Part shown: in pieces, positions 8,950 to 47,840 of the stretch | How the letters are laid out: each line of letters opens with the position of its first letter | Position numbering within the stretch: the stretch's first letter is position 1 | From: Synechococcus sp. Tobar12-5m-g | Lineage (GTDB): Bacteria > Cyanobacteriota > Cyanobacteriia > PCC-6307 > Cyanobiaceae | Direction of reading: 5' to 3' | Assembly: GCF_024345415.1 (NCBI RefSeq) | Contig: NZ_JAGQBB010000016.1 | Location: 1-64,000, forward strand | DNA: 64,000 nt | Program-made: the position numbers and the translations under genes | The notes under the pieces: generated by a model | Told to the model about the DNA's origin: nothing | The model's database searches: none | The model's input: the letters and a program-made list of their open reading frames with translations, nothing else

Positions 8950-9330
8950 CTACCCCTCCCCCATCAACTGCCTCACCAGAGCAATCAACTCCTTCTTCGT
9001 AAACCTCTCCAAGGGGGGCGGTGGCGGGTTTACGCCGTGCCGTTCAAGAACCTTGGCCAGAGCGTCCTTTTGCAACTTGGAGTACCCCTTGATCCCATGC
9101 TCCTTGCACAGCCGCTTGAGGCTGGCCACAGACTGTTGAAGGAAACTCCCCCTGCCGAGCAGGGGTTTCGGGTCGTGCCCCGCCGCCGGCTGCGCATCCT
9201 GGAGGTCATAGAGGGCAGCACCGGTGCGCTGCAGATGGTCTGCCATCCGGCGGTACACCCGGGCGTCGGTACCGGCGAGTTCCCGGTTGGTCTGCTCCAG
9301 AAGATCGGCGATTGAGGGGCCTGCGCTCAT
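8950..9330 (-). CDS. Small SAP/Rho-N-like protein upstream of broken hsdM
   Basis: 126 residues, function unknown. The N-terminal half is helical (SIADLLEQTNRELAGTDARV). The C-terminal half has two SAP/Rho-N-like short-helix units, SVASLKRLCKEHGIKGYSKL and FTKKELIALVRQLM, separated by a proline run (NPPPPPLE). Such units commonly bind nucleic acid. Its ATG overlaps the stop of the upstream coiled-coil gene (ATGA), so the two are translationally coupled. It lies 89 bp upstream of the hsdM remnant and may have been an accessory to that system. Confidence 0.65.
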   Translation of the reverse strand: MSAGPSIADLLEQTNRELAGTDARVYRRMADHLQRTGAALYDLQDAQPAAGHDPKPLLGRGSFLQQSVASLKRLCKEHGIKGYSKLQKDALAKVLERHGVNPPPPPLERFTKKELIALVRQLMGEG

Positions 9331-9785
9331 CGTTCCCCAGGGAGGCTGGATGGGCTGGAGGGGTCCGTCGTCGCTTCGGCCGCCAAGGCAGCAGCCTTGG
9401 CCTTCACCGTGCGCCAGCGGGTGGCCTGCTCGATCAACCGCCGGAACATCTCCACCAGCCAGAAGCCGCTCTGGCGCTCGCTTTCATCAATCAGGCCCAC
9501 CATCGCATCGCCCGTTTCCTCCAGTTCGCGGATCACGGTGCCGAGCTTGGCGTTGAGGGCATGGAGCCGGGCCTTGGCCAGGGCCTCATCGGCCAGGTCG
9601 GCCTCCAACTCCACCAATTCCCGCCGCAGCTCAGCAATCACCACCCCCCGCTTGTCGCTCTGGGCCTTGAGCAGGCCCCTGGAACGGTTGGCCGACACCA
9701 GGGCCGCGCGGCAGCCCTGGTAGGTGTCCTGTAGCGCTTCAGGTTTTGGGGTCACCGGAAAATCGGTGGCCGAGCGGAGTGGCAT
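9327..9785 (-). CDS. Coiled-coil protein of unknown function
   Basis: 152 residues, rich in Ala, Leu, Glu and Arg. A long predicted coiled coil runs through about residues 25-90 (LRRELVELEADLADEALAKA). There is no recognisable catalytic motif, signal peptide or membrane segment. It is the first gene of a three-gene minus-strand set (coiled coil, SAP-like, hsdM remnant) and overlaps the next gene by 4 bp. The frame is clean, so it may still be expressed. The initiation codon could be any of the first few candidates. Confidence 0.6.
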   Translation of the reverse strand: MPLRSATDFPVTPKPEALQDTYQGCRAALVSANRSRGLLKAQSDKRGVVIAELRRELVELEADLADEALAKARLHALNAKLGTVIRELEETGDAMVGLIDESERQSGFWLVEMFRRLIEQATRWRTVKAKAAALAAEATTDPSSPSSLPGER

Positions 9786-9835
9786 CGGGAATCGAATGGC
9801 TGCCTACAGGATTACGGATCTTGGTCTGATCTGCC

Positions 9836-9970
9836 GTGGTTCAAGCCGGGGGGACGGTGGTGATGTCCGTCGACCCCTCCCAAAGCCTGAAGGAGACCAT
9901 GCATCTGCTCCGCTCTCCTGCCGTTGCCCTGCTGGAGCATGGCCTGGTCGATGGGGCTTTCAGGCCCTGA
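9836..9970 (+). pseudogene. Antitoxin-like tail (YefM/Phd family), probably a remnant
   Basis: A 44-codon frame from GTG at 9836 contains TVVMSVDPSQSLKETMHLLRSP. This resembles the VVLMS...SL.ETLYLLRSPA segment near the C-terminus of YefM-type antitoxins. The DNA-binding N-terminal half is missing, the text after RSPA does not follow the family, and no RelE/YoeB toxin follows. It is probably a decayed toxin-antitoxin fragment. Confidence 0.4.
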
Positions 9971-10019
9971 TCGGAGTGATCAGGTCGTAGGACACTGAAC
10001 TCTCCATCCATGGCTGCCC

Positions 10020-10169
10020 GTGCCCAACCCCAGCGGATCCTTCAAATCGGCGATTGTCGGCCTGCTCGTGGTGATCGGTTCGATCGGAAGCCTGGCACTG
10101 CTGGGTTGGTTCACTGTGGTGCTGCTCGACCTCAAGCATCTGAACACGTCCGGTTTCACGCTGCCGTAG
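10020..10169 (+). CDS. Small single-membrane-span protein
   Basis: 49 residues from a GTG. An in-frame stop at 9996-9998 bounds the frame upstream. Residues 8-31 (AIVGLLVVIGSIGSLALLGW and on) form one hydrophobic span, followed by a short polar tail ending in TLP. No clear Shine-Dalgarno sequence is visible. It lies upstream of gltS in the same direction. It is not one of the small photosystem or cytochrome b6f subunits I recognise. It may be a short membrane peptide or chance. Confidence 0.4.
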   Translation: MPNPSGSFKSAIVGLLVVIGSIGSLALLGWFTVVLLDLKHLNTSGFTLP

Positions 10170-10407
10170 CCGCAACCCAGTGGAGAGCTGCGCTCACCCC
10201 AGGAAGCCTGATCATGGCGTCCGATTGATCTCTGGGCTGGTCACGCTGAACCGCCTTCGTCGTAGGTGCGCAGGTGGGCAACGTTGGTGCTCATGGGGGT
10301 GAGCCCGGTGCTGAGAGCACTGCTCCCTGAAATCCGAGCACACTTTGTTCGCAGGGCGTTGGGGGCGGGGCAGCAAGACCTAACCTGCCTGTTGCACACG
10401 ATCCAGG

Positions 10408-36524: not shown

Positions 36525-37913
36525 ATGACCCCAACGCTCTCCGCCGCGGTGGAGGCCTTCGACCTGGTGGTGATCGGTGCTGGATCGGGGGGGCTGGCAG
36601 CCGCCAAACGCGCCGCCTCCCACGGCGCCCGGGTGGCCATCGTCGAAGGCGACCGGGTCGGCGGCACCTGCGTGATCCGCGGCTGTGTCCCCAAGAAACT
36701 GCTGGTCTACGGATCCACCTACCGGCACCTGCTCGAAGACGCCGCCAGCTACGGCTGGTCGATCGGCTCCCCCCACTGTGATCCGGCCCGCCTGCTGGCC
36801 CAGGTGCGCTCCGAGGTGGACCGGCTCAACCAACTGCATCTCGGTTTCCTCGACGCGGCGGGAGTGGAACTGGTGCGGGGCTGGGGGCGGTTCCTGGATC
36901 CCCATCACCTCCAGGTCACCACCACCGACCCGGCGCCGCCACGGGTCCTGCGGGGCGAGCGCCTGTTGATTGCCGTGGGCGGGCGGCCCCAGCGGCCCGA
37001 TCTTCCCGGCGCCGAGCTGGCCTGGGTGAGCGACGACCTTTTCCTGCTCGAAACCCTGCCCGAGCGGGTGGTGATCGTGGGGGCGGGCTTCATCGCCTGC
37101 GAATTCGCCGGGATCCTCAACGGTCTCGGCGTGGGGGTCACCCAGCTGGTGCGCGGCGACCACCTGCTGCGGGGCTTCGACCGGGAGCTCTCCGAGACTG
37201 TCCGCGAAGCCATGGAAGCCGACGGAATCGAGATCCGCTTCTGCCACAGCCCAGCCGCGATCAGCGGCAAGGCCGGCGCACTGGTGCTGACCAGCCAAAG
37301 CGGCGATGCCCTGCCCTGCGGCGGTGTGCTGCTGGCAACGGGCCGCAAGCCCTGGCTCACCCCGCTCAACCTGGAGGCCGCCGGGGTGGCGATCGAGCAG
37401 GAGAGAATTCCGGTGGATGCCGATCAATGCACCAACATCCCCCACATCTACGCCGTGGGAGATGTCACCGATCGGATCAATCTCACCCCCGTCGCCGTGG
37501 ATGAGGGGCGCGCCTTCGCCGATACGGTCTATGGCCAGCAGCCACGCCAGGTGGATCATGGCCTGATCGCCAGCGCCGTGTTCAGCCAGCCGGAGCTGGC
37601 CACGGTGGGGCTGAGCGAGGAGGCTGCGGTGGAACGGCTCGGCCGTGAAGCCATCCGCGTGCATCGCGCCCGCTTCCGGGCGATGAGCCAGGCCCTGCCG
37701 CAACGCGGTCCCCGTTGTCTGCTCAAGCTGGTGGTGGAGCAGGCCACCGGCAAGGTGCTGGGTTGTCACATGGTGGGGGACCATGCTGCCGAGATCATTC
37801 AGATGGCGGCGATCGCCATCGGCATGGGGGCCACCAAGGCCGATTTCGATCGCACCATGGCGCTGCACCCCACCGTGGCCGAGGAATTTGTGACCATGCC
37901 GGACAATCCTTGA
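36525..37913 (+). CDS. gor: Glutathione-disulfide reductase
   Basis: 462 residues. FAD-binding VVIGAGSGGLAAAKRAA, the redox-active pair GGTCVIRGCVPKKLLVYG, NAD(P)-binding VVIVGAGFIACEFAGILNGL, FAD site IYAVGDVTDRINLTPVA, and the dimer-interface HPTVAEEF with the catalytic His. It recycles GSSG with NADPH in the cytoplasm. It complements the two GST-type proteins in this window and the zwf-opcA NADPH source at 51-53 kb. Confidence 0.95.
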   Translation: MTPTLSAAVEAFDLVVIGAGSGGLAAAKRAASHGARVAIVEGDRVGGTCVIRGCVPKKLLVYGSTYRHLLEDAASYGWSIGSPHCDPARLLAQVRSEVDRLNQLHLGFLDAAGVELVRGWGRFLDPHHLQVTTTDPAPPRVLRGERLLIAVGGRPQRPDLPGAELAWVSDDLFLLETLPERVVIVGAGFIACEFAGILNGLGVGVTQLVRGDHLLRGFDRELSETVREAMEADGIEIRFCHSPAAISGKAGALVLTSQSGDALPCGGVLLATGRKPWLTPLNLEAAGVAIEQERIPVDADQCTNIPHIYAVGDVTDRINLTPVAVDEGRAFADTVYGQQPRQVDHGLIASAVFSQPELATVGLSEEAAVERLGREAIRVHRARFRAMSQALPQRGPRCLLKLVVEQATGKVLGCHMVGDHAAEIIQMAAIAIGMGATKADFDRTMALHPTVAEEFVTMPDNP

Positions 37914-38541: not shown

Positions 38542-39921
38542 TCAGACAAGCCTTGAGCCGCTCGCCTGAAGCCGCTGGTCAGGATCGAACACGGCGGCGA
38601 TCGAACGGATCAACCAGCGGCCGGGTTCGGTCACCTCGAGCCGCTGGTCGGCCAGGCGCACCAGACCATCCCGCTCCATCGCCTCCAGGGCACGCCATTC
38701 GGGCTTGAACCTGATGCGGGCTGAAAGGGGAAGGCCCAGCTCGGGGTCAGCAAAGTCCACGGCGAAACGACACATCAACCGCTGGATGATGCGGCGGCGC
38801 AGCAGCACATCGGGATCGCGCACCACCAGCCCGCGCTCCACCGGCAGCTCGCCGGCTTCGAGGGCGGCCCCATAGGCCTTGAGGGTCCGCTGATTCTGGC
38901 TGAACAGGGCGGGGAACTGGCTGATCGCCGTGACGCCGATCGCCAGCAGATCCAGCTCACCACCGGTGGTGTAACCCTGGAAATTGCGGTGCAGCCGGCC
39001 TTCCCGGGCCGCCACCGCCAGGCTGTCTCCCGCCAGGGCGAAATGGTCCATGCCGATCGCGTCGTAGCCGTCGCCGGTGAAGGCGTTGTAGGCGGCCTGC
39101 AACATCTGCACCCGCTCCCGCTGGCTGGGCAGATCGTCGGCGGCGATCTTGCGCTGCAGGGGCAGCTGCTGGGGCAGGTAGGCGAAGCTGAACAGGGACA
39201 CCCGATCGGGCCGCAGCTCCTCCACCAGGGCGATCGTGGTGGCAAAGCGCTCCGGGGTCTGCAGCGGCAGGCCGCAGATCAGATCCACGTTCACACTCTC
39301 GAAGCCCGCCTCCCGCATCCAGCCCATCGCCCGCTGCAGCTGGTCGGCCGGCACGATCCGGTTCACCGCCGCCTGCACCTCAGGGTCGGCGTCCTGGATG
39401 CCGAAGCTGATCCGGTTGAAGCCCAGCCGGCACAGCCCCAGCACCTCCTGGCGACTGAGAAACTCCGGGTTCACCTCGATCGAGGCTTCCAGATCGGGGG
39501 CCAGGTCGAAATGGCGCTCGATCAAGACCCAGAGCTCGGCCTGCTCCGCGATGCTCAGGTAGTTGGGGGTGCCGCCTCCCCAGTGCAGTTGGCCAAGGCG
39601 ACGGCGCTGGCCGGAGGAGTGCCGGATCAGCTCCAGCTCCATGCCCAGGGCCCGAAGATAGGGTTCCACCACCTTCGATCCGGCCTGGGTGGTGATCCGG
39701 TTGCAGCCGCAGTACCAGCAGGCATGGCGGCAGAAGGGGAGGTGCACGTAGAGGGAGAGAGCCTCTGCGGAGGGCCGGGCCAGCTCGGCCGCCAGGTCGG
39801 CGGCACCCACAGCGGGGTGAAAACTGGCGGCGGTGGGGTAGCTGGTGTAGCGGGGGACGGGCTTGTCGTACTTGAGCAGCAGCTGCAGTGGATCAAGGCG
39901 CGCGGGTGCGGTGGCGGGCAT
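38542..39921 (-). CDS. hemN: Oxygen-independent coproporphyrinogen III oxidase
   Basis: 459 residues. The radical-SAM cluster is in FCRHACWYCGCNRITT (CxxxCxxC plus the fourth Cys). GGGTPNYLS, EVNPEFLSRQEV, FGIQDADPEVQAAVNR and NVDLICGLPLQTPERF are HemN signatures. It decarboxylates coproporphyrinogen III without O2, replacing HemF when oxygen is low. It lies 62 bp downstream of ho on the same strand; the pair forms the left arm of the low-oxygen island. Confidence 0.97.
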   Translation of the reverse strand: MPATAPARLDPLQLLLKYDKPVPRYTSYPTAASFHPAVGAADLAAELARPSAEALSLYVHLPFCRHACWYCGCNRITTQAGSKVVEPYLRALGMELELIRHSSGQRRRLGQLHWGGGTPNYLSIAEQAELWVLIERHFDLAPDLEASIEVNPEFLSRQEVLGLCRLGFNRISFGIQDADPEVQAAVNRIVPADQLQRAMGWMREAGFESVNVDLICGLPLQTPERFATTIALVEELRPDRVSLFSFAYLPQQLPLQRKIAADDLPSQRERVQMLQAAYNAFTGDGYDAIGMDHFALAGDSLAVAAREGRLHRNFQGYTTGGELDLLAIGVTAISQFPALFSQNQRTLKAYGAALEAGELPVERGLVVRDPDVLLRRRIIQRLMCRFAVDFADPELGLPLSARIRFKPEWRALEAMERDGLVRLADQRLEVTEPGRWLIRSIAAVFDPDQRLQASGSRLV

Positions 39922-39983
39922 GGAGACCGAAGATTGGGGGTGGACGAGCTGGGAGCTGGAGGGGATTCAGGGACTGGGGGATG

Positions 39984-40697
39984 TCAGGAGCCAGCCGGTG
40001 CGTCCAGTTCGCCCAGTTCTCCCAGCAGCCGCTGGGTATCGCCGAAGGCGAGCACGGCTTCATCGAGCAGCTCGGCCTCTTCCGCCTCACTTAGTTCAAG
40101 CTGCTCGAAGGCGTTGTGCAGGGCGGCCTTGAGCACGGGAATCGGCCGATCGAACGCCCAGAAGCGCACCGCCGGCAGTCCGTGGGCGGCCAGGATCGCG
40201 TTGGCCTGCTCCGCCAGCTGCTGGCCGCCGGAGAGGTCGCCGCCGTAGCGCACATAAACGTGGGCCAGGAAGCGATGCGGGGCCTGCTGGGCCAGGGTGC
40301 CGAGGTGCTCGAGCCAGATGGCCGCGGCGGCGGAGGGCGGCGTGGCCGGGGCCACCGCCAGGGCGGCCGTGTCGGCGGCCAGGCCAGCGCTGCGGGCCAG
40401 ATCCGCCCAGGGGAGATCGGCGGCGCCGAGGGCGGCGGCCAGCTCGGGGCCCCGCTCTTCAATCAGGGCGTAGCCCGGCCCAAGGGCACGGATCAGGGCC
40501 GCCAGCTGCAGCGGGCTGGCCTGGCCATCGAGCAGGGAGCGCGAGAAGGCCATGCCTTCGGCGGCGTGGTGGGCGGCACCAATGCGGGCATGCAGGCGGC
40601 GCACCCGCGGGCCGAAACCCTTTCGGGCGTCCGTGTCGGCGGGGAGGGCATGGTCTGAGATCGGAGCGGGAAGGGGCGAGGGGAGCGTGGTGATCAT
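39984..40697 (-). CDS. ho2: Heme oxygenase (HO2-like, low-oxygen cluster)
   Basis: 237 residues from ATG 40697 (MITTLPSPLPAP). The proximal haem His is in IGAAHHAAEGMAFSRSLLDG, and the distal helix motif is YVRYGGDLSGGQQLAEQA. It opens haem to biliverdin for phycobilins and iron release. The HO2 label rests on context (upstream of hemN, near acsF and a D1'); the sequence alone gives only heme oxygenase. It is Ala-rich and divergent from the gene at 40811. Confidence 0.92.
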   Translation of the reverse strand: MITTLPSPLPAPISDHALPADTDARKGFGPRVRRLHARIGAAHHAAEGMAFSRSLLDGQASPLQLAALIRALGPGYALIEERGPELAAALGAADLPWADLARSAGLAADTAALAVAPATPPSAAAAIWLEHLGTLAQQAPHRFLAHVYVRYGGDLSGGQQLAEQANAILAAHGLPAVRFWAFDRPIPVLKAALHNAFEQLELSEAEEAELLDEAVLAFGDTQRLLGELGELDAPAGS

Positions 40698-40810
40698 GGC
40701 GAAGGCGACCGGAGGCGAAGGGACTCGAGTGGAATCAAGCATTTCAATGGTATCGCGCTACCGTTATTCCGTTGTTTCATCGTTGCGGTTTTGTTGCAAC
40801 GTCCCTGCCC
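40698..40810. promoter_or_regulatory. Divergent promoter region of ho/hemN and the gene at 40811
   Basis: It holds two small inverted repeats: ggta-tcgcgc-tacc (40749-40762) and cgttgc-ggttttgtt-gcaacg (about 40781-40801). The stretch tattccg...atcgttg recurs, with different spacing, upstream of psbA at about 46038-46053. This may be a shared low-oxygen control signal. Confidence 0.35.
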
Positions 40811-41164
40811 ATGGCTTCCGCCCCCTTTGTCCCGTCCTCTGCGCCCCGCTGCCTGCATCTGCTGCTGGCAGCCTCGGGCCAGCTCAGCGCCGATGGCCAG
40901 CTGCGGGAACTGATCGCCGAGCGGCGTGATCGCCGCGGCACCGATGTGGAGCTCTGGTACTTGCCACCGGCGGCGCTCGCCCGGGTACTGCCGGATGGAG
41001 CACCGGGCCAGGAAGGGGTGGTGGCTGGAGATCCGGCGGTGATCACCTGGCTGCAGCTGCGTTTCGGGGGCATGGTGAGCATTGCCCTGCTGGATCCACA
41101 ACGGCTCCATGCCCAGGCCGACGGCCTGCCCCCCCGGGCACCGCTGCCGGCGCTGGCGCTCTAA
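40811..41164 (+). CDS. Hypothetical protein in the low-oxygen island
   Basis: 117 residues from ATG 40811. CLHLLLAASGQLSADGQLRE is followed by RRGTDVELWYLPPAALARVL and ITWLQLRFGGMVSIALLDPQ. It looks like a small alpha/beta protein without signal peptide or membrane span. I do not recognise the family. Its position, divergent from ho, suggests shared control. Confidence 0.6.
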   Translation: MASAPFVPSSAPRCLHLLLAASGQLSADGQLRELIAERRDRRGTDVELWYLPPAALARVLPDGAPGQEGVVAGDPAVITWLQLRFGGMVSIALLDPQRLHAQADGLPPRAPLPALAL

Positions 41165-41336
41165 AGGCCGCCAGGCGGCGGGGGCGTCAGGGCCGCCGCA
41201 CCGTTGTGTCCGGGACGACAGCCGGGACCCCTTGAGCCCTCGAAAGTTCTTTTCTCTGCTGGGATCAGCGAGCGGACCTCGTCGATCGCCACACCCCCCC
41301 TCTTTGCCCATCCCCTGAGCCCCAGAGCGTCACCCC

Positions 41337-41612
41337 ATGACCATCAGCCCTCTCCTGGGCCCCCGCCATGGGGTTCTGATCAATCGGCTCCGCCGCTGTC
41401 TTGATGGCATCGGCCCGCGCCATGCCGCCGTGGCCCGCCTGCTGGTGCGGCTGATCCCCGCCCGCTGCCCCTTCGAGCGCGACGTGGTGATCGCCGGTCG
41501 CAAACTGCTGCACATCCCGCCGCTGTGCAGGATTAACCCTCTGTTCGACGAGCTGATGGCGCTCCGCTTCCGCGCCCTCTGCCGCCTGGAGGCCCGGCGG
41601 CCAATCTCCTAG
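41337..41612 (+). CDS. Mo-dependent nitrogenase C-terminal-domain protein
   Basis: 91 residues. LVRLIPARCPFERDVVIAGR, LLHIPPLCRINPLFDEL and ALRFRALCRLE match the Mo-nitro_C family, named from cyanobacterial proteins near nitrogenase genes. Three Cys are well placed for a metal or cofactor. No nif gene is in the window, so a nitrogenase role is not implied. It converges on the ADO-like gene, overlapping by 4 bp. Confidence 0.8.
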   Translation: MTISPLLGPRHGVLINRLRRCLDGIGPRHAAVARLLVRLIPARCPFERDVVIAGRKLLHIPPLCRINPLFDELMALRFRALCRLEARRPIS

Positions 41613-42034
41613 CCCCGGTCGGCCTCATCGGCCAGCACCGTCGCCGTGATCGGCGCAGCATGGGCATCGGCCACCGGTAGATAGCAGCGGTAGGCGGCCA
41701 CGGCGAAGCTTTCCACGATCAGGCACTGGATCACCAGCGCCCCAACCGGGTCTGCGGCGCTGAGCGCCTCATTGAAGAGCCCGTGCAGCGGCGCGAACAG
41801 CCGGCTCGCCAGGGGCAGATCGGGGCGAATGGCCAGCTGGCGGCCGCAGCCCACGAAATCCACGGCGTGGCCGCCTTCCATCGCCGCCAGGCGCCAAAGC
41901 TCGTCGCCATCTTCAGGCACCAATTTCGCCAGCTTTCGGAAGTGGCGGTCGGCCAGCCCCTCGCCCACGATCGCGAGGCCGTTGATCCGTGCGTAGGCGT
42001 CGCGGTAGGCGGGGGTGAGCTCAGGAACGGGCAT
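41609..42034 (-). CDS. Truncated aldehyde-deformylating-oxygenase-like diiron protein
   Basis: 141 residues, against about 230 for ADO. YRDAYARINGLAIVGEG, AMEGGHAVDFVGCGRQL, VIQCLIVESFAVAAY and YLPVADAHAAPITATVLADE follow cyanobacterial ADO closely. Putative iron ligands Glu25, Glu53, His56, Glu108 and Glu137 remain. The protein stops at ADEADRG, so the last ligand His of the second ExxH and about 90 C-terminal residues are missing. ADO makes alkanes from fatty aldehydes; this one may be inactive or have another role. It starts 8 bp after the glycosyltransferase stop. Confidence 0.75.
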   Translation of the reverse strand: MPVPELTPAYRDAYARINGLAIVGEGLADRHFRKLAKLVPEDGDELWRLAAMEGGHAVDFVGCGRQLAIRPDLPLASRLFAPLHGLFNEALSAADPVGALVIQCLIVESFAVAAYRCYLPVADAHAAPITATVLADEADRG

Positions 42035-42041
42035 GGGGACC

Positions 42042-42785
42042 TCAGGTGATGGAAACGGGAACAGGATTGGCAACAGCAGGAACCGGCTCCAGCCGCAACG
42101 GCTCGTTCATGGCGGCGCGGGCCGCCAGCCAGCGGTCTGAGGCGGGCATGGTCTGGCAGTCGTCGAACCAGGGGCCGCCGAGGGTGTAATGCAGGATCTT
42201 CGGGGCGGCCGGCAGCGGCTGCACCCCCACCAGCACGTTCCATTCCGGCGGCAGCGCGCCGATCTGCTCGTCCGCCAGCCAGTGGAACTGGTGCAGCTCC
42301 AGGCCCGAGGCGGTGTTGACGAACTCCGGCGTGAGCGCCGCGCAGCGCTCGCAGTTAAACAGCATCACCGACGACCAGTTCTTGCGGCCGTAGGGCGTCT
42401 GGGGCATGCCCTGGAACTTCAGACCCTCCTCGCAGGCGTGCTGGTGCTTGACCACCTGCACCGCAAAGCGGTCGTCGCGCAGGGCCCAGAGCTCGGCGAG
42501 ATCCGCCAGGCACAGCATGTCGGCGTCGATGAACAGGGCCCAGCCCTCGTAGCCCGCCAACCAGGGCACCAGGAAGCGGCTGAAAGAGAAATCGGTGCTC
42601 TGGCGCGCATCGCGCTCCCGCTGGTACACGCCTGCCAGCTGATCGAGCCGCACCTGGCCGATCAGCAGCGGCAGGCTGGAGCGGGCCTGAAACGAATCGG
42701 CGAGCACGTTCACCGCCACCCGCTCCCGCGGGTCGTAGCCGACGAACACGCGTGGCATCTCAAGGCCATCGGGCGCGCTGCTCAT
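42042..42785 (-). CDS. GT8-like glycosyltransferase
   Basis: 247 residues from ATG 42785, overlapping the acsF stop (ATGA). RVFVGYDPRERVAVNVLADS begins the nucleotide-sugar-binding fold. The DxD motif is in WALFIDADMLCLADLAEL. SSVMLFNCERC and the late ILHYTLGGPWFDDC resemble GT8-type enzymes. Acceptor and sugar are unknown. It is unusual inside a chlorophyll-synthesis operon. Confidence 0.82.
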   Translation of the reverse strand: MSSAPDGLEMPRVFVGYDPRERVAVNVLADSFQARSSLPLLIGQVRLDQLAGVYQRERDARQSTDFSFSRFLVPWLAGYEGWALFIDADMLCLADLAELWALRDDRFAVQVVKHQHACEEGLKFQGMPQTPYGRKNWSSVMLFNCERCAALTPEFVNTASGLELHQFHWLADEQIGALPPEWNVLVGVQPLPAAPKILHYTLGGPWFDDCQTMPASDRWLAARAAMNEPLRLEPVPAVANPVPVSIT

Positions 42786-43831
42786 CCGCCCTCCGCCGGC
42801 ACCATGGGTTGGCAGAACTGGCGGAGCAGCAAAGCAGCGAAACGAAGCTTCAGCCCCAGCAGCCGCAGCAGCGAGGCTCCTTCCGCCTTGGCCGCCTGCC
42901 ACTCCTGGAAGCAGGCCACCAGCCGGTCACGCAGCGCAAGGAAGTGGCTGTTCTCCAGGTTGAACACCCAGGGGAAGGCCCGGCGGGCGGTGCGGTTGGT
43001 GTTGCGCATCACTTCGGCGTCAAAGCGGTGGGGATCCATTCCCAGGATCCGGTAGAAATCCCCCCGCTCACACACGGTGAGGCTGTGGGTGAGAAACACC
43101 GACCAGAGGAAGAAGCGGCTGAGCAACTTGCCGCGCATACCCTGCTTCAGGGCGGGCCAGCAGCGAATCAGCAGATTGAAGATGTCGCCGTGGCGGTTCT
43201 CGTCCTGGCACCAGGGCTCGAAGAAATCGAACAGCGGCGCGAAGGCATTGTCGGGGTGGGCCTTGAGGTGCCGGTCGATGAGGATGTACCGCCAGTAGCC
43301 GATCTTCTCGGACAGAAACACCGAATACAGCACCCAGCTGAGCGGGAACCAGGTGATCGGCCGCTTCGTACTCAGTTTCGGCAGATCGAGCTCGATCCCT
43401 TCCGCCACCAGCGCCCGGTTGAGGAAACCTGCATGGCGGGCCTCATCACGGGCCATCAACTGGAACAGCCGACCCAGCTCCGTCCGGTCGGCCTGGAACA
43501 AACGGCGGGAGAGCTCCTTGAACAGCAGAAAACCGGAGAATTCCGACACACAGGAGCGCACCAGGTAACTCTCGTAGGCCGTCTTCTCCTCCAGGCTCAG
43601 GTCGCGGAGGCGATCGAGCGGGGCCTTGCGGTCGAAGTGGTCGCGGTTGTGGTCGGCCTCCATCTCGGCGAGCATCGCCTCGAAGGCCGGCCGTTGCGGC
43701 TCCAGATCGGTGCGGGCGGCCTTCTCGATTTCGGTGGTGTAAAAGCGGGGCGTCAGCAGGTCTTCCCGCAGGTGAGGCGCGGCGGTGGGAGCGGAGCCGG
43801 CATTGACGGCGGAGGTGGTGGTGACAGTCAT
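42782..43831 (-). CDS. acsF: Mg-protoporphyrin IX monomethyl ester oxidative cyclase (AcsF/ChlA, second form)
   Basis: 349 residues from ATG 43831, overlapping the hemerythrin stop. LLTPRFYTTEIEKAA, EMEADHNRDHF, and the diiron motifs LMARDEARHAGFLNRALV and WCQDENRHGDIFNLLI are those of AcsF. It forms the fifth ring of chlorophyll using O2. Its company with hemerythrin, hemN and ho suggests the low-oxygen paralogue (ChlAII); a primary copy is probably elsewhere. Confidence 0.95.
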   Translation of the reverse strand: MTVTTTSAVNAGSAPTAAPHLREDLLTPRFYTTEIEKAARTDLEPQRPAFEAMLAEMEADHNRDHFDRKAPLDRLRDLSLEEKTAYESYLVRSCVSEFSGFLLFKELSRRLFQADRTELGRLFQLMARDEARHAGFLNRALVAEGIELDLPKLSTKRPITWFPLSWVLYSVFLSEKIGYWRYILIDRHLKAHPDNAFAPLFDFFEPWCQDENRHGDIFNLLIRCWPALKQGMRGKLLSRFFLWSVFLTHSLTVCERGDFYRILGMDPHRFDAEVMRNTNRTARRAFPWVFNLENSHFLALRDRLVACFQEWQAAKAEGASLLRLLGLKLRFAALLLRQFCQPMVPAEGG

Positions 43832-44307
43832 CGGTGAACCTTCATGGAAGGGGTGGTGGCTGAAGCGGCACAGGCGTAGGCGATGGCATCGGCGCTGTGG
43901 CGGTGGTGATTGAACCAGGCCTGCAGGTCCATCAGCCACTGGAGCCGGGCTGTGTGGTGCTGGCCGTCCCGCTGCCAGTCCTCGGTGACGTCACGAGCCA
44001 CCTGGCGATGGGAGGCCCCATGGCTGTCGCAGAGGCTTCCCCAGCGGGCCAGCCAGCGCTCCTCAAGCCGCAGATGCAGGATCAGCAGCCGCAGCAACCG
44101 GGCGCAGCTGGCCTGCTCAGTGGCGAATTCGGCGGGGCCGAGGTCCTTCTCGTGACGGCAATGGCATTCGATCGCCTGCGCCAGCAGGCCCTCAAGCCGG
44201 TCATGCTGCTGCTCCAGCAGGTTCCGTTGGTCGGGCCAACGCCGCGGCCAGGGAATGGCCGAGGCGCTTGGGTGCGGCGCAGGCGGCGTCAGGAGCAGGG
44301 CAGGCAT
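43828..44307 (-). CDS. Hemerythrin-like O2-binding protein
   Basis: 159 residues. The putative diiron ligands fit the hemerythrin spacing: His35 (LEQQHDRLEGLL), His78 and Glu82 (LILHLRLEERW), His96 and His100 (CDSHGASHRQV), and His135 and Asp140 (WFNHHRHSADAIAY). It would bind O2 or scavenge or sense it. It is the first gene of an operon in which every junction through the glycosyltransferase overlaps as ATGA. I infer it could supply O2 to AcsF or signal O2 level; neither is shown. Confidence 0.8.
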   Translation of the reverse strand: MPALLLTPPAPHPSASAIPWPRRWPDQRNLLEQQHDRLEGLLAQAIECHCRHEKDLGPAEFATEQASCARLLRLLILHLRLEERWLARWGSLCDSHGASHRQVARDVTEDWQRDGQHHTARLQWLMDLQAWFNHHRHSADAIAYACAASATTPSMKVHR

Positions 44308-44521
44308 GTCTCATCGACATAACGACAGTGTGATAGTACATGCATTGCATCACATGATCTCTTCTGGGCTTGGTCTTGTCAGCCTGGCCCCAGTCATGGC
44401 TTGAGGCTCGTGATCACCAAGCCACCGTGATACTGCGTTATCACGGTGGCTTGGTGCCAGGCTGGCGACGAAGGGGCTAAAGTCCGAACGTTGCTTCGTT
44501 GATTCCGTTCGCTCCGTGCCG
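44308..44521. promoter_or_regulatory. Divergent control region between hemerythrin operon and arsR
   Basis: It contains a perfect palindrome (44415-44456) and a 26-base interrupted palindrome, tgtgat-N14-atcaca (44329-44354), 22 bases upstream of the hemerythrin start. The region is AT-richer than the genes. Both elements are likely regulator sites for the island. Promoter boxes were not assigned with confidence. Confidence 0.6.
44415..44456. repeat. Perfect 18-bp-arm palindrome, candidate ArsR operator
   Basis: Left arm caccaagccaccgtgata and right arm tatcacggtggcttggtg are exact complements around the 6-base spacer ctgcgt. The core tgata-N6-tatca has the size of ArsR/MarR operators. No T run follows on either strand, which argues against a terminator. 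It lies 66 bp upstream of the arsR start. Confidence 0.8.
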
Positions 44522-44827
44522 ATGGAGGCCCTCGCCGACTACTTCAAGGTCTTCTCCGAGCCCAACCGCTTGGCTGTTCTGGACGCCCTGCGCGGCGGCG
44601 CCCTCAACGTCACCGCCGTGGTGGAACGGACCGGCCTGAGCCAGGCGCTTGTCTCCAAGCACCTCAAGTTGCTCACGATCGCCGGGGTGGTGAGGCGGCG
44701 ACCCGAGGGCAGCCTGGTGTTCTACGAGGTGATCGACAAGAACGTGTTCAGGCTGATCCAGCAGGCCGACAAGCTGCTGCTGGCTACCCGGCGCCAGCAG
44801 CTCGATGCCCTGGTTGCCATCCTCTGA
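44522..44827 (+). CDS. ArsR-family transcriptional regulator, cysteine-free
   Basis: 101 residues from ATG 44522 (MEALADYFKVFSEPNRLAVL). The winged helix reads NVTAVVERTGLSQALVSKHL, then KLLTIAGVVRRRPEGSLVFY. There is no Cys at all, so the classic metal site (ELCVCDL) is absent. The signal must be sensed in another way or through a partner. It is followed at once by the pentapeptide-repeat gene and faces the hemerythrin operon; it probably controls the island. In Synechocystis the comparable cluster is controlled by a MarR-type protein (ChlR). Confidence 0.88.
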   Translation: MEALADYFKVFSEPNRLAVLDALRGGALNVTAVVERTGLSQALVSKHLKLLTIAGVVRRRPEGSLVFYEVIDKNVFRLIQQADKLLLATRRQQLDALVAIL

Positions 44828-45469
44828 GTGCCCCCGGTTTCTCTCGCCGAGCTGCGACAGGCCCTGGCGTCGGGAGAGCGTTCCTTTCCCGCGCTTTGGC
44901 TCCACGGGATCGATGGCGGTGATCTGGATCTGGCCGACTGCGACCTCAGCGGCAGCTCGTTCCAGGAATCCCGCTTCGGCCACGCCAACCTCAGCGGTGC
45001 CCTGCTGGCGGGCTGCCGCTTTCAGCGTTCCCTGATCTGGGGCGCGGATCTCTCCGGGGTGCGGGCCGCCGGTTCGTTCTGGCATGAGGCCGATCTCTCA
45101 GGCTGCCGGCTGCAGCAGGCCGACTTCCGTCGGGCGCTGCTGCACCGCTGCTGCCTGCGGGGCGTGGTGGCCGCCGGCAGCCACTGGCAGGAGGCCCGCC
45201 TGGTGGAAGCCGATTTCCGCTCCGGCCTCGACCAGCTCACTGACTTGGGCGGAGCCGATTTCAGCGGCGCCGATCTGAGCTTCGCCAGCCTCGGCGGCAC
45301 CCAGATGCACGGGGCCCAGCTTCGCGGGGCCTGCCTCTACGGGGCCGACCTGCGCCAGGCCGATCTTCGCCAGGCCGACCTGCGTGGCTGCGACCTGCGC
45401 GACACCCAACTCGATGGGGCCGTGCTGGACGGGGCCTTGTTGGGAGGGGCCCGGCTCGATTCCGCTTAG
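44828..45469 (+). CDS. Pentapeptide-repeat protein
   Basis: 213 residues from GTG 44828, directly after the arsR stop. A(D/N)LxG-type repeats run from about residue 30 to the end (DLDLADCDLSGSSFQESRFG, GADLRQADLRQADLRGCDLR). They form a right-handed beta-helix. No signal peptide or extra domain. Function unknown; such proteins can act as scaffolds or DNA mimics. Same transcript as arsR; its stop overlaps that of the convergent DUF3122 gene. Confidence 0.88.
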   Translation: MPPVSLAELRQALASGERSFPALWLHGIDGGDLDLADCDLSGSSFQESRFGHANLSGALLAGCRFQRSLIWGADLSGVRAAGSFWHEADLSGCRLQQADFRRALLHRCCLRGVVAAGSHWQEARLVEADFRSGLDQLTDLGGADFSGADLSFASLGGTQMHGAQLRGACLYGADLRQADLRQADLRGCDLRDTQLDGAVLDGALLGGARLDSA

Positions 45470-45975
45470 CCCTCCCCTGCGGTGCTGATGGCGGCCACAA
45501 TCTCCGGTGACAGCATCAGATCCCGATCCGGGGCGTCTTGTAGGGGGATGGAAATCCTCAGGGGAAGGGCGTTGCTGGGCCTGGGCACCAGGCCGGCAAG
45601 ATCGAACTGAGCCGAGCCAGCGGGGATGGCCGCTTCCCCGGCGGGCACCTGCTCCTCGCTGCGATTGGCGAGTTGCCAGTGGGCTCCCGTGGTCCCTTGG
45701 ACCTCCATCGGGCGTTGATGGTCCAGCCGCTGATCCAGGCCCAGGGCGTTGAGGCGCAGGCGCCAGCCTGGCTCAAAATCCGGGTCGGGCTGCTCGAACA
45801 GGCTGATTGCCCAGCGCTCACCGCTGGTGTCCGCCTGCGACCAGCGCTGGATTGGGGCTGCTGCCTGGGCCGGTGCCGGTGCCAACAGGGCAAGGCCGGA
45901 GAGGGTGAGCAGGGAGGCGAACAGGCCGGCCAGCACGCGGACCTGCCAACGACGATGGGCGGAGTCTTTTGCCAT
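45466..45975 (-). CDS. Exported DUF3122 protein
   Basis: 169 residues. The signal peptide (VLAGLFASLLTLSGLALLAP, then APAQA) is followed by a beta-rich domain: RWSQADTSGERWAISLFEQP, WRLRLNALGLDQ, RPMEVQGTTGAHWQLAN. This fits DUF3122, a cyanobacterial/plastid family of lumenal or periplasmic proteins. It is divergent from psbA, sharing a 164-bp control region. A photosystem-linked role is a guess. Confidence 0.78.
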   Translation of the reverse strand: MAKDSAHRRWQVRVLAGLFASLLTLSGLALLAPAPAQAAAPIQRWSQADTSGERWAISLFEQPDPDFEPGWRLRLNALGLDQRLDHQRPMEVQGTTGAHWQLANRSEEQVPAGEAAIPAGSAQFDLAGLVPRPSNALPLRISIPLQDAPDRDLMLSPEIVAAISTAGEG

Positions 45976-46139
45976 GGGATCGTGCAGCCAAAACTAAGGC
46001 AATACCACTCATAGCAACGCTCCGGCTTTATGCAGGTATTCCGGTATCGTTGTAGAGGGGAAGGAGGTAGTTCTGCCCCGGCTGAATGCTCCGCCGGGTC
46101 AACCCACCACCGAGCCCAACGTCCCATGCCCTCCTCACC
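45976..46139. promoter_or_regulatory. psbA upstream region and leader
   Basis: It contains aatacc (about 46000) and ggtatt (46034-46039) as a spaced inverted pair, and ggtatcgttg following. A strong Shine-Dalgarno-like aaggaggt (46061-46068) precedes an in-frame ATG at 46086 by 17 bases and lies 72 bases from the true psbA ATG. It may be part of an RNA control element rather than the working ribosome site. Confidence 0.4.
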
Positions 46140-47219
46140 ATGACGACAACCACCGTCAGCCGTTCCCGGGGCAACCCATGGAACAGCTTCAAGGACTGGG
46201 TGACCAGCACCGACAACCGCCTCTACGTGGGCTGGTTCGGCGTGCTGATGATCCCCACCCTGCTGACCGCCACCGTCTGCTTCCTGATTGCCTTCGTGGG
46301 CGCTCCCCCCGTCGACATCGACGGCATCCGCGAGCCCGTCTCAGGCGGCCTGCTCTACGGCAACAACATCATCACCGCCGCGGTAGTGCCGAGCTCCAAC
46401 GCCATCGGCCTGCACTTCTACCCGATCTGGGCTGCCTCCAGCCTCGATGAGTGGCTCTACAACGGCGGCCCCTACCAGCTGATCATCTTCCACTTCCTGA
46501 TCGGCATCTTCTGCTGGATGGGCCGGGAGTGGGAACTGAGCTATCGCCTGGGGATGCGCCCCTGGATCGCCGTGGCCTATTCCGCTCCGGTGGCTGCCGC
46601 CACCGCCGTGCTGCTGGTCTATTCCGTGGGGCAGGGCTCCTTCTCCGACGGCATGCCGCTGGGGATCTCCGGCACCTTCAACTTCATGCTGGTGCTCCAG
46701 GCAGAGCACAACGTGCTGATGCACCCCTTCCACATGCTCGGGGTGGCCGGGGTGTTCGGTGGCGCCCTGTTCGCCGCCATGCACGGGTCGCTCGTCACCA
46801 GTTCGCTGGTGCGGGAGAGCACCGAAACCGAATCTCTCAACAGGGGCTACAAGTTCGGCCAAGAGGAAGAGACCTACAACATCGTGGCCGCCCACGGCTA
46901 CTTCGGTCGTCTGATCTTCCAGTACGCCAGCTTCAACAACAGCCGCAGCCTTCACTTTCTGCTGGCCGCCTGGCCCGTGGTTGGTATCTGGTTCGCCTCC
47001 CTGGCGGTGGCCAGCTTCTCGTTCAACCTCAACGGACTGAATTTCAACCACTCGGTGATGGATCACCAGGGCCGGGTGATCAACACCTGGGCTGATGTGC
47101 TCAACCGCGGCGGCCTGGGCATCGAGGCGATGCACGAGCGCAACGTGCACAACTTCCCGCTCGATCTGGCGGCAGTTGAGCTGACTCCTGTGGCGCTCAG
47201 TGCGCCGGCGATCGGTTAG
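46140..47219 (+). CDS. psbA: Photosystem II D1, microaerobic D1' form
   Basis: 359 residues from ATG 46140 ([14 protein letters not shown]). Numbering matches standard D1 without gaps. All three residues that mark low-oxygen D1' are present: Ala80 (usually Gly), Leu158 (usually Phe) and Ala286 (usually Thr). Other differences are Ser162 for Pro, Glu130 (high-light type) and Val336 for Ala. Tyr161, His190, Asp170, Glu189, His332, Glu333, Asp342 and Ala344 are kept, so water oxidation should be possible, unlike rogue D1. The tail after Ala344 would be cut by CtpA. An upstream in-frame ATG (46086) would add 18 unusual residues. Confidence 0.96.
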
Positions 47220-47409: not shown

Positions 47410-47840
47410 GTGCGCGGCCTCCAACACAAGAACCGGGCCGCTGAACTTCTGGAGAAACTGCTCAAAGATGAACGCAAGGTGTGCTCCAGGTGCAACCGCT
47501 CGCAGAGCCAGATCTTCAGCGAAACGCTCAGTCAAACTCTCAACGCATACCACAACCACGCCATCTTCACGATGCAGGTGATCGAGCTGATCAATCAGCC
47601 CAATGACCTCGATGCCGCAAGGAGAAGAAAAGCGTGACGATTGACCGGACTCTGCGCGAATGCGCCCGCGCCACTATCCCCACAATGGTGAAACGCATCC
47701 TCAGCACATCTGGCTCCCCGTCCGATCTGCAGAAAGAAGCTGTGAAAACCATTCTGGTCCAGGCGTCGATGTTCTTTGCAGAGTGGGTGGAGCTCCCTCA
47801 AGCCAGCCGCAACCCCTCGATTCCCTGCCAGGCCAGATAG
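47410..47840 (+). pseudogene. hsdR: Remnant of type I restriction enzyme HsdR (C-terminal part)
   Basis: The first piece (47410-47637) reads AAELLEKLLKDERKVCSRCN, SQIFSETLSQTLNAYHNHAI and MQVIELINQ, the helical HsdR C-terminal region. The second piece, in another frame from 47634, reads MTIDRTLRECARATIPTMVK and RILSTSGSPSDLQKEAVKTI, matching the last part (VTIDW..RE..RA.....VKRIL...G.P.D.Q..A....L.QA). About 50 residues between them are deleted. The helicase and nuclease domains are absent. Non-functional. Confidence 0.85.

Follow-up and report, generated by a model that had tools for sequence, protein, structure and literature searches.

Do the genes for alternative tetrapyrrole enzymes and for an alternative photosystem II (PSII) core protein that lie side by side in Synechococcus sp. 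Tobar12-5m-g form one oxygen-responsive module, and what would control them? The island in question spans positions 38542-47219 of a 64,000-nt stretch of contig NZ_JAGQBB010000016.1 (assembly GCF_024345415.1), here called the window. An initial annotation had read it as a single low-O2 module that swaps both the tetrapyrrole enzymes and the PSII core, and every gene that it named was found by profile matching at or near the position given; an open reading frame (ORF) on the forward strand, 40811-41164, had been overlooked and proved to be Ycf54-like. With a probability of about 0.72, we consider the island to be an oxygen-limitation module of Cyanobium/Synechococcus-type picocyanobacteria, with three divergent promoters, one operator, a cyclase of AcsFII and the Ycf54-like protein, a D1' core and an ArsR protein as its likely regulator. 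A drop in O2 would turn on the three promoters jointly through the common operator and yield HemN, a second heme oxygenase, the D1' PSII core and a second cyclase in which AcsFII is joined by a dedicated Ycf54-like subunit; a hemerythrin would be translated just before AcsFII. The island's cysteine-free ArsR and the pentapeptide-repeat protein that follows it would act instead of ChlR, known from other cyanobacteria. Induction at low O2 is expected by analogy with Acaryochloris, where acsFII, ho, hemN and one psbA are raised under microoxic conditions (PMC5295598).

All four swap-in genes (hemN, ho, acsFII and D1' psbA) have aerobic counterparts at other places in this 2.95-Mb genome, which is G000 in our family genome set. 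AcsF-I (43% identical to island AcsFII) lies on C4, an ordinary D1 psbA (79% identical to the island psbA) on C19, another heme oxygenase (30% identical to the island copy) on C46 and the aerobic hemF (PF01218) on C7. Linked genes for AcsFII, a second heme oxygenase and HemN, with aerobic counterparts elsewhere, are also what characterizes the chlAII-ho2-hemN cluster. The island psbA encodes Ala80, Leu158 and Ala286, which we take to be D1' markers, and keeps the Mn-cluster ligands. The same three residues and intact ligands were present in 10/10 D1'-like genes aligned. In 12/12 ordinary D1 rows from relatives, the marker positions were instead Gly, Phe and Thr; the ordinary D1 of the same genome stood outside this alignment and was read separately at Gly80 and Thr286 alone. 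Ala286 is also seen in T. elongatus PsbA2 (PMC9709244).

Conservation of the neighbourhood was assessed in the best 80 of 105 loci, which comprised 31 non-Prochlorococcus loci (Cyanobium, Synechococcus, Vulcanococcus, Aphanothece or unnamed cyanobacteria, some cut by contig ends), 48 Prochlorococcus-type loci and the mixed L151. Among the 31, the Ycf54-like gene, which served as the query, was accompanied by ho in 30, hemN in 29, and acsFII and an ADO-like gene in 25 each; arsR and the pentapeptide gene were found in 18 each, hemerythrin in 13 and a glutathione-reductase-like gene in 11. Linkage in related genomes, on which the initial annotation had let its reading stand or fall, was therefore observed for the core genes. 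Gene order was likewise conserved: Ycf54-like and ho lay on opposite strands in all 30 named loci holding both, and a pentapeptide gene followed arsR within 300 bp in 21/21 arsR-containing loci of the 80. In other families, nine AcsFII loci were viewed (L054, L055, L104-L110); ArsR was present in three (L104, L105 and L106; 46-53%), a pentapeptide gene near acsFII in these and in L109, and a hemerythrin directly before acsFII in one (L104, by reading), and a search of the nine with the window hemerythrin gave no match. The glutathione-reductase-like gene often lies near arsR-pentapeptide (e.g., L040, L042 and L044), and in the window it is found near the island at 36525-37913.

How, then, is the second cyclase composed? 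ORF 40811-41164 had no Pfam match at E 0.01, and the Ycf54 profile (PF10674) matched C11 alone in G000, where the canonical Ycf54 of this genome is encoded. When an alignment of 13 relatives of the ORF was compared by hhalign with one of 10 canonical Ycf54 sequences, the two matched with a probability of 95.7 (E 9.6e-9), and an hmmsearch of Protein Data Bank sequences with the 13-row alignment returned Ycf54 for all of the first five matches (2.7e-6 to 1.3e-3; next match 0.23). An AlphaFold2 model (per-residue confidence, pLDDT, 87.1; predicted template-modelling score, pTM, 0.77) led Foldseek to Ycf54 in all of the first six hits (probability 1.00, TM 0.48-0.62, root-mean-square deviation 3.1-6.9), with E values from 8.1e-4 to 3.3e-3, one of them <0.001. 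Across 99 genomes, some of which had supplied rows of the alignment and so match by construction, its profile gave strong matches (E <1e-15) in 36; it also found canonical Ycf54 loci weakly (~1e-9 to 1e-4) in many genomes, C11 being that locus in G000. Seven Ycf54 residues have been studied, A9, F13, E22, E26, D39, F40 and R82 (PMC5317394). By manual mapping, the equivalents of A9, E22, E26 and R82 were invariant in the 13 Ycf54-like sequences, F13 was kept in 0/13, D39 in 3/13 and F40 in 4/13. As the Pfam model and part of this residue comparison failed, we call the product Ycf54-like rather than a member of Ycf54; judged by profile comparison and predicted fold, a Ycf54-like protein is what the ORF encodes, and it is predicted to be the auxiliary subunit of AcsFII.

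This prediction was examined by co-occurrence in 61 family genomes, using lists typed by hand in which AcsFII was defined by at least 58% identity to the window copy and AcsF-I by 39-47%. AcsFII and the Ycf54-like protein were found together in 36 genomes and AcsFII without it in four, while none of the 21 genomes lacking AcsFII contained it. AcsF-I was accompanied by PF10674 in 24/24 genomes, and PF10674 occurred without AcsF-I in two more (G005 and G025). The Ycf54-like protein was present in 26/26 AcsFII-only genomes, 25 of which had no PF10674 match and one a partial match (G005), and in 0/10 AcsF-I-only genomes. Neither cyclase type was seen in eleven genomes, of which ten are 53-84% complete and the other (G029, 99%) has a short AcsF piece alone. 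In the Prochlorococcus-type loci, no island-type ho or hemN was shown, and in 47/48 the Ycf54-like gene lay on the strand opposite to acsFII with 449-675 bp between them; the 48th showed no acsF. That some low-light Prochlorococcus have ChlAII and lack ChlAI has already been tabulated (PMC4500134). In a midpoint-rooted FastTree phylogeny of 56 AcsF sequences (one duplicated), Prochlorococcus-type AcsF and island AcsFII formed one 30-sequence clade (support 1.0). AcsF-I formed a separate clade (support 1.0), placed under this rooting among the AcsFII of other families, and the support of 0.44 for the whole family group of 32 AcsF is too low to settle the deep order. One genome (G005, L045 2403-7461) carries two AcsFII and two Ycf54-like genes on a single contig, with one copy closer to the island type and the other closer to the Prochlorococcus type.

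The divergent units of the island appear to be tied together by their promoters. A similar 18-bp partial dyad was found in all three divergent gaps, namely hemerythrin-acsFII/arsR, ho-hemN/Ycf54-like and psbA/DUF3122. Allowing at most one mismatch, the pattern TATYNCGNTNNCGTTRT matched the window four times against 0.05 expected in shuffled sequence, three of the matches being in island gaps, and the whole genome eight times against four for a reversed-pattern control, the sole two perfect matches lying in the island; by reading, the ORFs adjoining the five other matches in the genome showed no evident related genes. This pattern had been drawn up from the island sites themselves, and hence position weight matrices (PWMs) were used for further tests. 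The first PWM drew on nine hemerythrin/acsF gaps in relatives and left out all sites from the window, ho and psbA; L044 was dropped from training owing to its other spacing, L120, L121 and L131 from the test set as belonging to training genomes, and L151 from both groups. It scored 20.0-33.6 in 17/17 arsR-acsF gaps of other named loci and exceeded 4.0 in 22/27 test ho gaps, 4.0 being the 95th percentile of 560 random 170-bp segments (maximum 33.6, presumably from a segment on a site). The motif also precedes the unlinked ho genes of G008 and G026. Scores of the first PWM upstream of 45 Prochlorococcus-type acsF genes had a median of 3.3; the highest, 16.2, came from one of the two ArsR-containing loci.

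A second matrix (PWM2) combined acsF and ho sites without any psbA site; it was built after the D1' sites had been viewed by eye, excludes words ending in TC and low scorers, and includes four typed words equal to training-locus sites. Its three best hits in the window were the three island gaps, although its site set holds, from a relative, the same 18-mer as the window ho gap, so that the first PWM is the fair test there. PWM2 gave 5.8-19.4 for ten D1' upstream regions and at most 6.1 for 20 ordinary psbA upstream regions, with 8/10 D1' regions at or above 8.0, the 95th percentile of random 200-mers. In relatives, acsFII and ho are again preceded by the motif and D1' psbA by a weaker match to it, but ordinary psbA is not. 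The tie between the units extends to genomes in which ho-hemN or D1' psbA are located elsewhere. The D1' gene (at least 87% identity) was present in 10/14 tested genomes with both AcsF types and 0/12 others, and 8/10 copies lay on another contig or far from acsFII. It is inside the island in G000 and G003, and the G040 copy is ~5 kb from arsR. A psbA of at least 60% identity was found in 5/31 named non-Prochlorococcus loci, one of them a fragment, and psbA was dropped as a general island part. In G001 (L036 14125-14313), the last 63 codons of a psbA stand beside DUF3122 in the island and a complete D1' gene is on another contig. G026 has acsFII in distant pieces (L049 near 9753-10379 and L114 near 9631-10124), with a perfect motif before one and arsR beside the other, as if a rearrangement had broken inside the gene.

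The best candidate to act on this motif is encoded beside it. The island ArsR contains a winged-helix domain of the ArsR/SmtB family (NF033788, above cut-off), and ArsR was found in 13/14 family genomes with both AcsF types, as well as in G005, G032, G046 and G052, and in 2/48 Prochlorococcus-type loci. No cysteine is present in the window ArsR or, within the matched spans alone, in 21/21 named loci and 9/10 other relatives, which makes one of the usual metal or thiol sites improbable; that all relatives are cysteine-free does not hold. This ArsR is most likely the regulator of the module, for which it would bind the motif, and together ArsR and the 18-bp motif look like the on/off switch of the set. 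In a cyanobacterium from outside the family, the ArsR gene of L106 is directly preceded by two overlapping dyads that resemble the motif (9292-9317; scores 18.3 and 15.9), which suggests self-regulation there. Some pentapeptide-repeat proteins are DNA mimics. The spans encoded next to ArsR are acidic (net charge -7 to -11 in 10/11, -1 in one), and we would guess at a comparable role for them.

ChlR was considered as the regulator and set aside as less likely. The HxlR-type neighbour of acsFII in G066, taken for a ChlR relative from its position alone, was used as the query; it had 72-82% matches beside AcsFII in G061, G076 and G085, and no close ChlR-like gene was found with it in 21 family genomes (best 46%; 43% in G000). 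The strict ChlR box (TTMCC-N3/4-GGWAA) was absent from the window and equally absent from nine outside-family loci scanned, so that its absence says little about ChlR control. The G066 locus itself (L105 8807-13116) holds the HxlR-type, perhaps ChlR-like, gene together with acsFII, a pentapeptide gene and ArsR, and may contain both regulators.

Among the further genes to which the initial annotation had assigned O2 delivery, sensing or envelope changes, hemerythrin and ArsR retain a plausible part and several others fared less well. The hemerythrin stop codon overlaps the acsFII start as ATGA, and the seven ligand positions expected from what we assume to be the diiron pattern are kept in 8/8 family sequences aligned and in L104 of another family. 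Hemerythrin is therefore a plausible O2-binding partner; it might serve the diiron cyclase as a store or donor of O2 or iron, or act as an O2 sensor. The ADO-like gene cannot be counted a working partner here because it is full-length in five relatives read and 3'-deleted in the window, where the copy scores 132 bits (cut-off 222.65) and ends just before what is presumably the last metal ligand. The rest of ADO was in no frame after the stop, and a truncated ADO as a new short protein was likewise rejected; an assembly error may lie behind the truncation. L040 (G008) has an internally deleted ADO-like remnant, and a complete ADO is encoded on C34 of G000. Mo-nitro_C (5/31 named loci), GT8 (8/31) and DUF3122 (3/31) were rejected as core parts on their distribution, and nothing in the analysis points to envelope changes. 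A T1RH-like_C fragment (3.1e-15; C-terminal part, type I restriction enzyme family) directly 3' of psbA at 47410-47637 is probably a remnant.

Table 1. Genes and operator-like sites of the island, in window coordinates.
Feature	Position	Strand	Evidence and remarks
hemN, O2-independent coproporphyrinogen III oxidase	38542-39921	-	TIGR00538 482.8 bits, cut-off 324.95
ho, second heme oxygenase	39984-40742	-	PF01126 2.8e-21
Operator-like motif, ho-hemN/Ycf54-like gap	40750-40767	+	first PWM 16.8, second in window; PWM2 24.8, best
Ycf54-like (proposed name Ycf54-II), predicted AcsFII auxiliary subunit	40811-41164	+	hhalign, PDB search, AlphaFold2/Foldseek, co-occurrence with AcsFII
Mo-nitro_C domain protein, peripheral	41337-41612	+	PF06967 1.1e-27
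ADO-like, 3'-deleted copy of a second ADO-like gene	41609-42073	-	profile position 134 of 218 reached
GT8-like glycosyltransferase, peripheral	42042-42785	-	start inferred, open frame to 42902; PF01501 24.6 bits, cut-off 24.3
acsFII, O2-dependent Mg-protoporphyrin monomethyl ester cyclase, second isoform	42782-43831	-	start inferred, open frame to 43939; TIGR02029 357.6 and NF010172 435.8 bits, both above cut-offs
Hemerythrin-like protein	43828-44307	-	Pfam 17.9 bits, below cut-off 25.3; ligand positions kept
Operator-like motif before hemerythrin-acsFII	44319-44336	-	first PWM 21.2, best in window; PWM2 22.2, second
Perfect 18-bp inverted repeat, arsR/hemerythrin gap	44415-44456	.	arms 6 nt apart, TATCACGG at arm ends; PWM2 14.5 and 13.2, next-best in window
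arsR, ArsR/SmtB-type protein without cysteine, candidate regulator	44516-44827	+	NF033788 72.6 bits, cut-off 55
Pentapeptide-repeat protein, directly 3' of arsR	44828-45469	+	PF00805 5.8e-37
DUF3122 protein, divergent from psbA, peripheral	45466-45975	-	PF11320 1.6e-11
Operator-like motif before psbA (D1')	46036-46053	+	PWM2 19.0, third in window; first PWM 7.8, ninth
psbA, D1' (low-O2-type D1)	46140-47219	+	open frame from 46086; TIGR01151 712.8 bits

Several observations weigh against a single module of this kind. As to the motif, 5/27 ho gaps fell below the 95th percentile of random segments, most arsR-acsF gaps (169-714 bp) exceed the 170-bp controls in length, and in G056 (L046) acsFII showed no preceding site. 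Two of the ten D1' regions (L075 and L079) scored no better with PWM2 than the best ordinary psbA region, and the first PWM placed just 5/10 above it; a symmetric PWM was discarded as too weak, its two best window hits being outside the island and its scores overlapping between D1' and ordinary psbA regions. Because Prochlorococcus-type motif scores are low and ArsR is present in so few of those loci, the Ycf54-like gene is not tied to this switch there. As to the cyclase, D39 and F40, required in Ycf54 for interaction with AcsF (PMC5317394), correspond to Glu and Leu in the window copy, and the Fisher value of 1e-12 for co-occurrence is a guide at most, since kinship among the genomes makes p-values overstate significance.

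These points bear on the rival explanations to different degrees. The motif might be bound by some other regulator, such as a ChlR/HxlR relative or a global regulator, with ArsR and the pentapeptide protein sensing, for instance, sulfide or a metal. ArsR is unlinked in G002, G040 and G056 and was not found in G001 (80% complete) despite the presence of the motif, HxlR-type genes do exist in the family, and in other cyanobacteria ArsR genes stand beside sqr, which is often near low-O2 psbA types (PMC5061849). We nevertheless regard this as unlikely, given the near-constant presence of ArsR in genomes with both cyclases, motif scores of at least 20 in all 17 arsR-acsF test gaps against mostly low ones in the Prochlorococcus-type loci (46/48 without ArsR), and the distance of the best family HxlR protein from those beside AcsFII elsewhere. 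Alternatively, genes with similar expression could simply share a conserved promoter element, the motif being an unusual -10 region and no regulator site at all; by reading, it lies near the hemerythrin start codon in several loci, with a right half similar to a -10 box. An 18-bp partial dyad exceeds the length of a -10 box, however, and the 20 ordinary psbA upstream regions scored low, which makes this explanation very improbable.

The genes could also be mere co-inherited neighbours, with the Ycf54-like protein serving both cyclases or another role. The Ycf54-like protein was not found in four AcsFII genomes (G008, G026, G038 and G056, with acsFII in pieces in G026), and AcsFII may therefore work with ordinary Ycf54 there; moreover, the single Ycf54 of Synechocystis was pulled down with both AcsF isoforms (PMC7319587). 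Against this, the Ycf54-like protein occurred without AcsFII in 0/61 genomes, genomes with AcsFII as sole cyclase retain it, nearly all of them without a PF10674 match, and it stays near acsFII in Prochlorococcus-type loci that show no island-type ho or hemN, so that we hold mere neighbourhood to be improbable. The oxygen-limitation module with ArsR as its likely regulator is consequently the reading we retain. A more far-reaching version is doubtful but worth stating: AcsFII and the Ycf54-like protein would be a second two-subunit cyclase, a low-O2 spare turned sole cyclase in many Prochlorococcus lineages, joined to a new oxygen switch in which a cysteine-free ArsR has an acidic, DNA-mimic-like pentapeptide partner.

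Cyanobacteria with low-O2 enzymes but without ChlR have been named in a review, which supposes another mechanism for them (PMC4500134). The island ArsR with its motif offers a concrete candidate for such ChlR-less control, at least in picocyanobacteria, and if the switch is real it could answer how these organisms control their low-O2 genes. Ycf54 has further been described as ubiquitous in oxygenic phototrophs (PMC7319587), against which 25/26 AcsFII-only genomes have no PF10674 match and all 26 a divergent relative; the Ycf54 alignments in PMC7319587 and PMC5317394 each have a Prochlorococcus row (MED4 and another strain, respectively), which could be of either Ycf54 type. The parts of the open-access literature covered describe neither a second Ycf54-like gene nor control of such a cluster by ArsR.

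Among known regulators, RexT of Anabaena, an ArsR-type redox repressor, shares the ArsR/SmtB family with the island protein but has vicinal cysteines and recognizes ATTCG-N15-CGAAT, whereas the island ArsR is without cysteine and is associated with another motif (PMC13421787). Ycf54 (PF10674), the auxiliary subunit of the O2-dependent cyclase (PMC5317394, PMC7319587, PMC13297055), resembles the Ycf54-like protein in profile, predicted fold, association with an AcsF gene and the residues A9, E22, E26 and R82; the latter differs in that the Pfam model does not reach it, F13 is never kept, and it pairs with AcsFII, not AcsF-I. Group 3 D1' genes such as T. elongatus psbA2 (PMC9709244, PMC5061849) have Ala286 and the kept Mn ligands in common with the island psbA, which, unlike them, adjoins tetrapyrrole genes (in G000 and G003) and has their promoter motif. 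Brackish Synechococcus BS55D and BS56D from the anoxic Black Sea are reported to have both hemF and hemN, as here, with BchE beside an O2-dependent cyclase; the passage in question does not mention AcsFII, Ycf54, D1' or ArsR (PMC6776005). Closest are the ChlR-controlled clusters chlAII-ho2-hemN of Synechocystis 6803 and acsFII-ho2-hemN-desF of Synechococcus 7002, with the same three enzymes and aerobic counterparts elsewhere, and Synechocystis psbA1 (D1') has been named as a possible ChlR target (PMC4500134). Compared with these, the island adds the Ycf54-like gene, hemerythrin, and ArsR with its pentapeptide protein, is split into divergent units, lacks a close ChlR-like gene, uses another promoter motif and in some genomes includes D1' psbA. 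Overall, the island is probably a new form of an already known set of low-O2 enzymes, marked by a Ycf54-like subunit of its own, a hemerythrin, a D1' psbA and a motif that ties it to control by ArsR.

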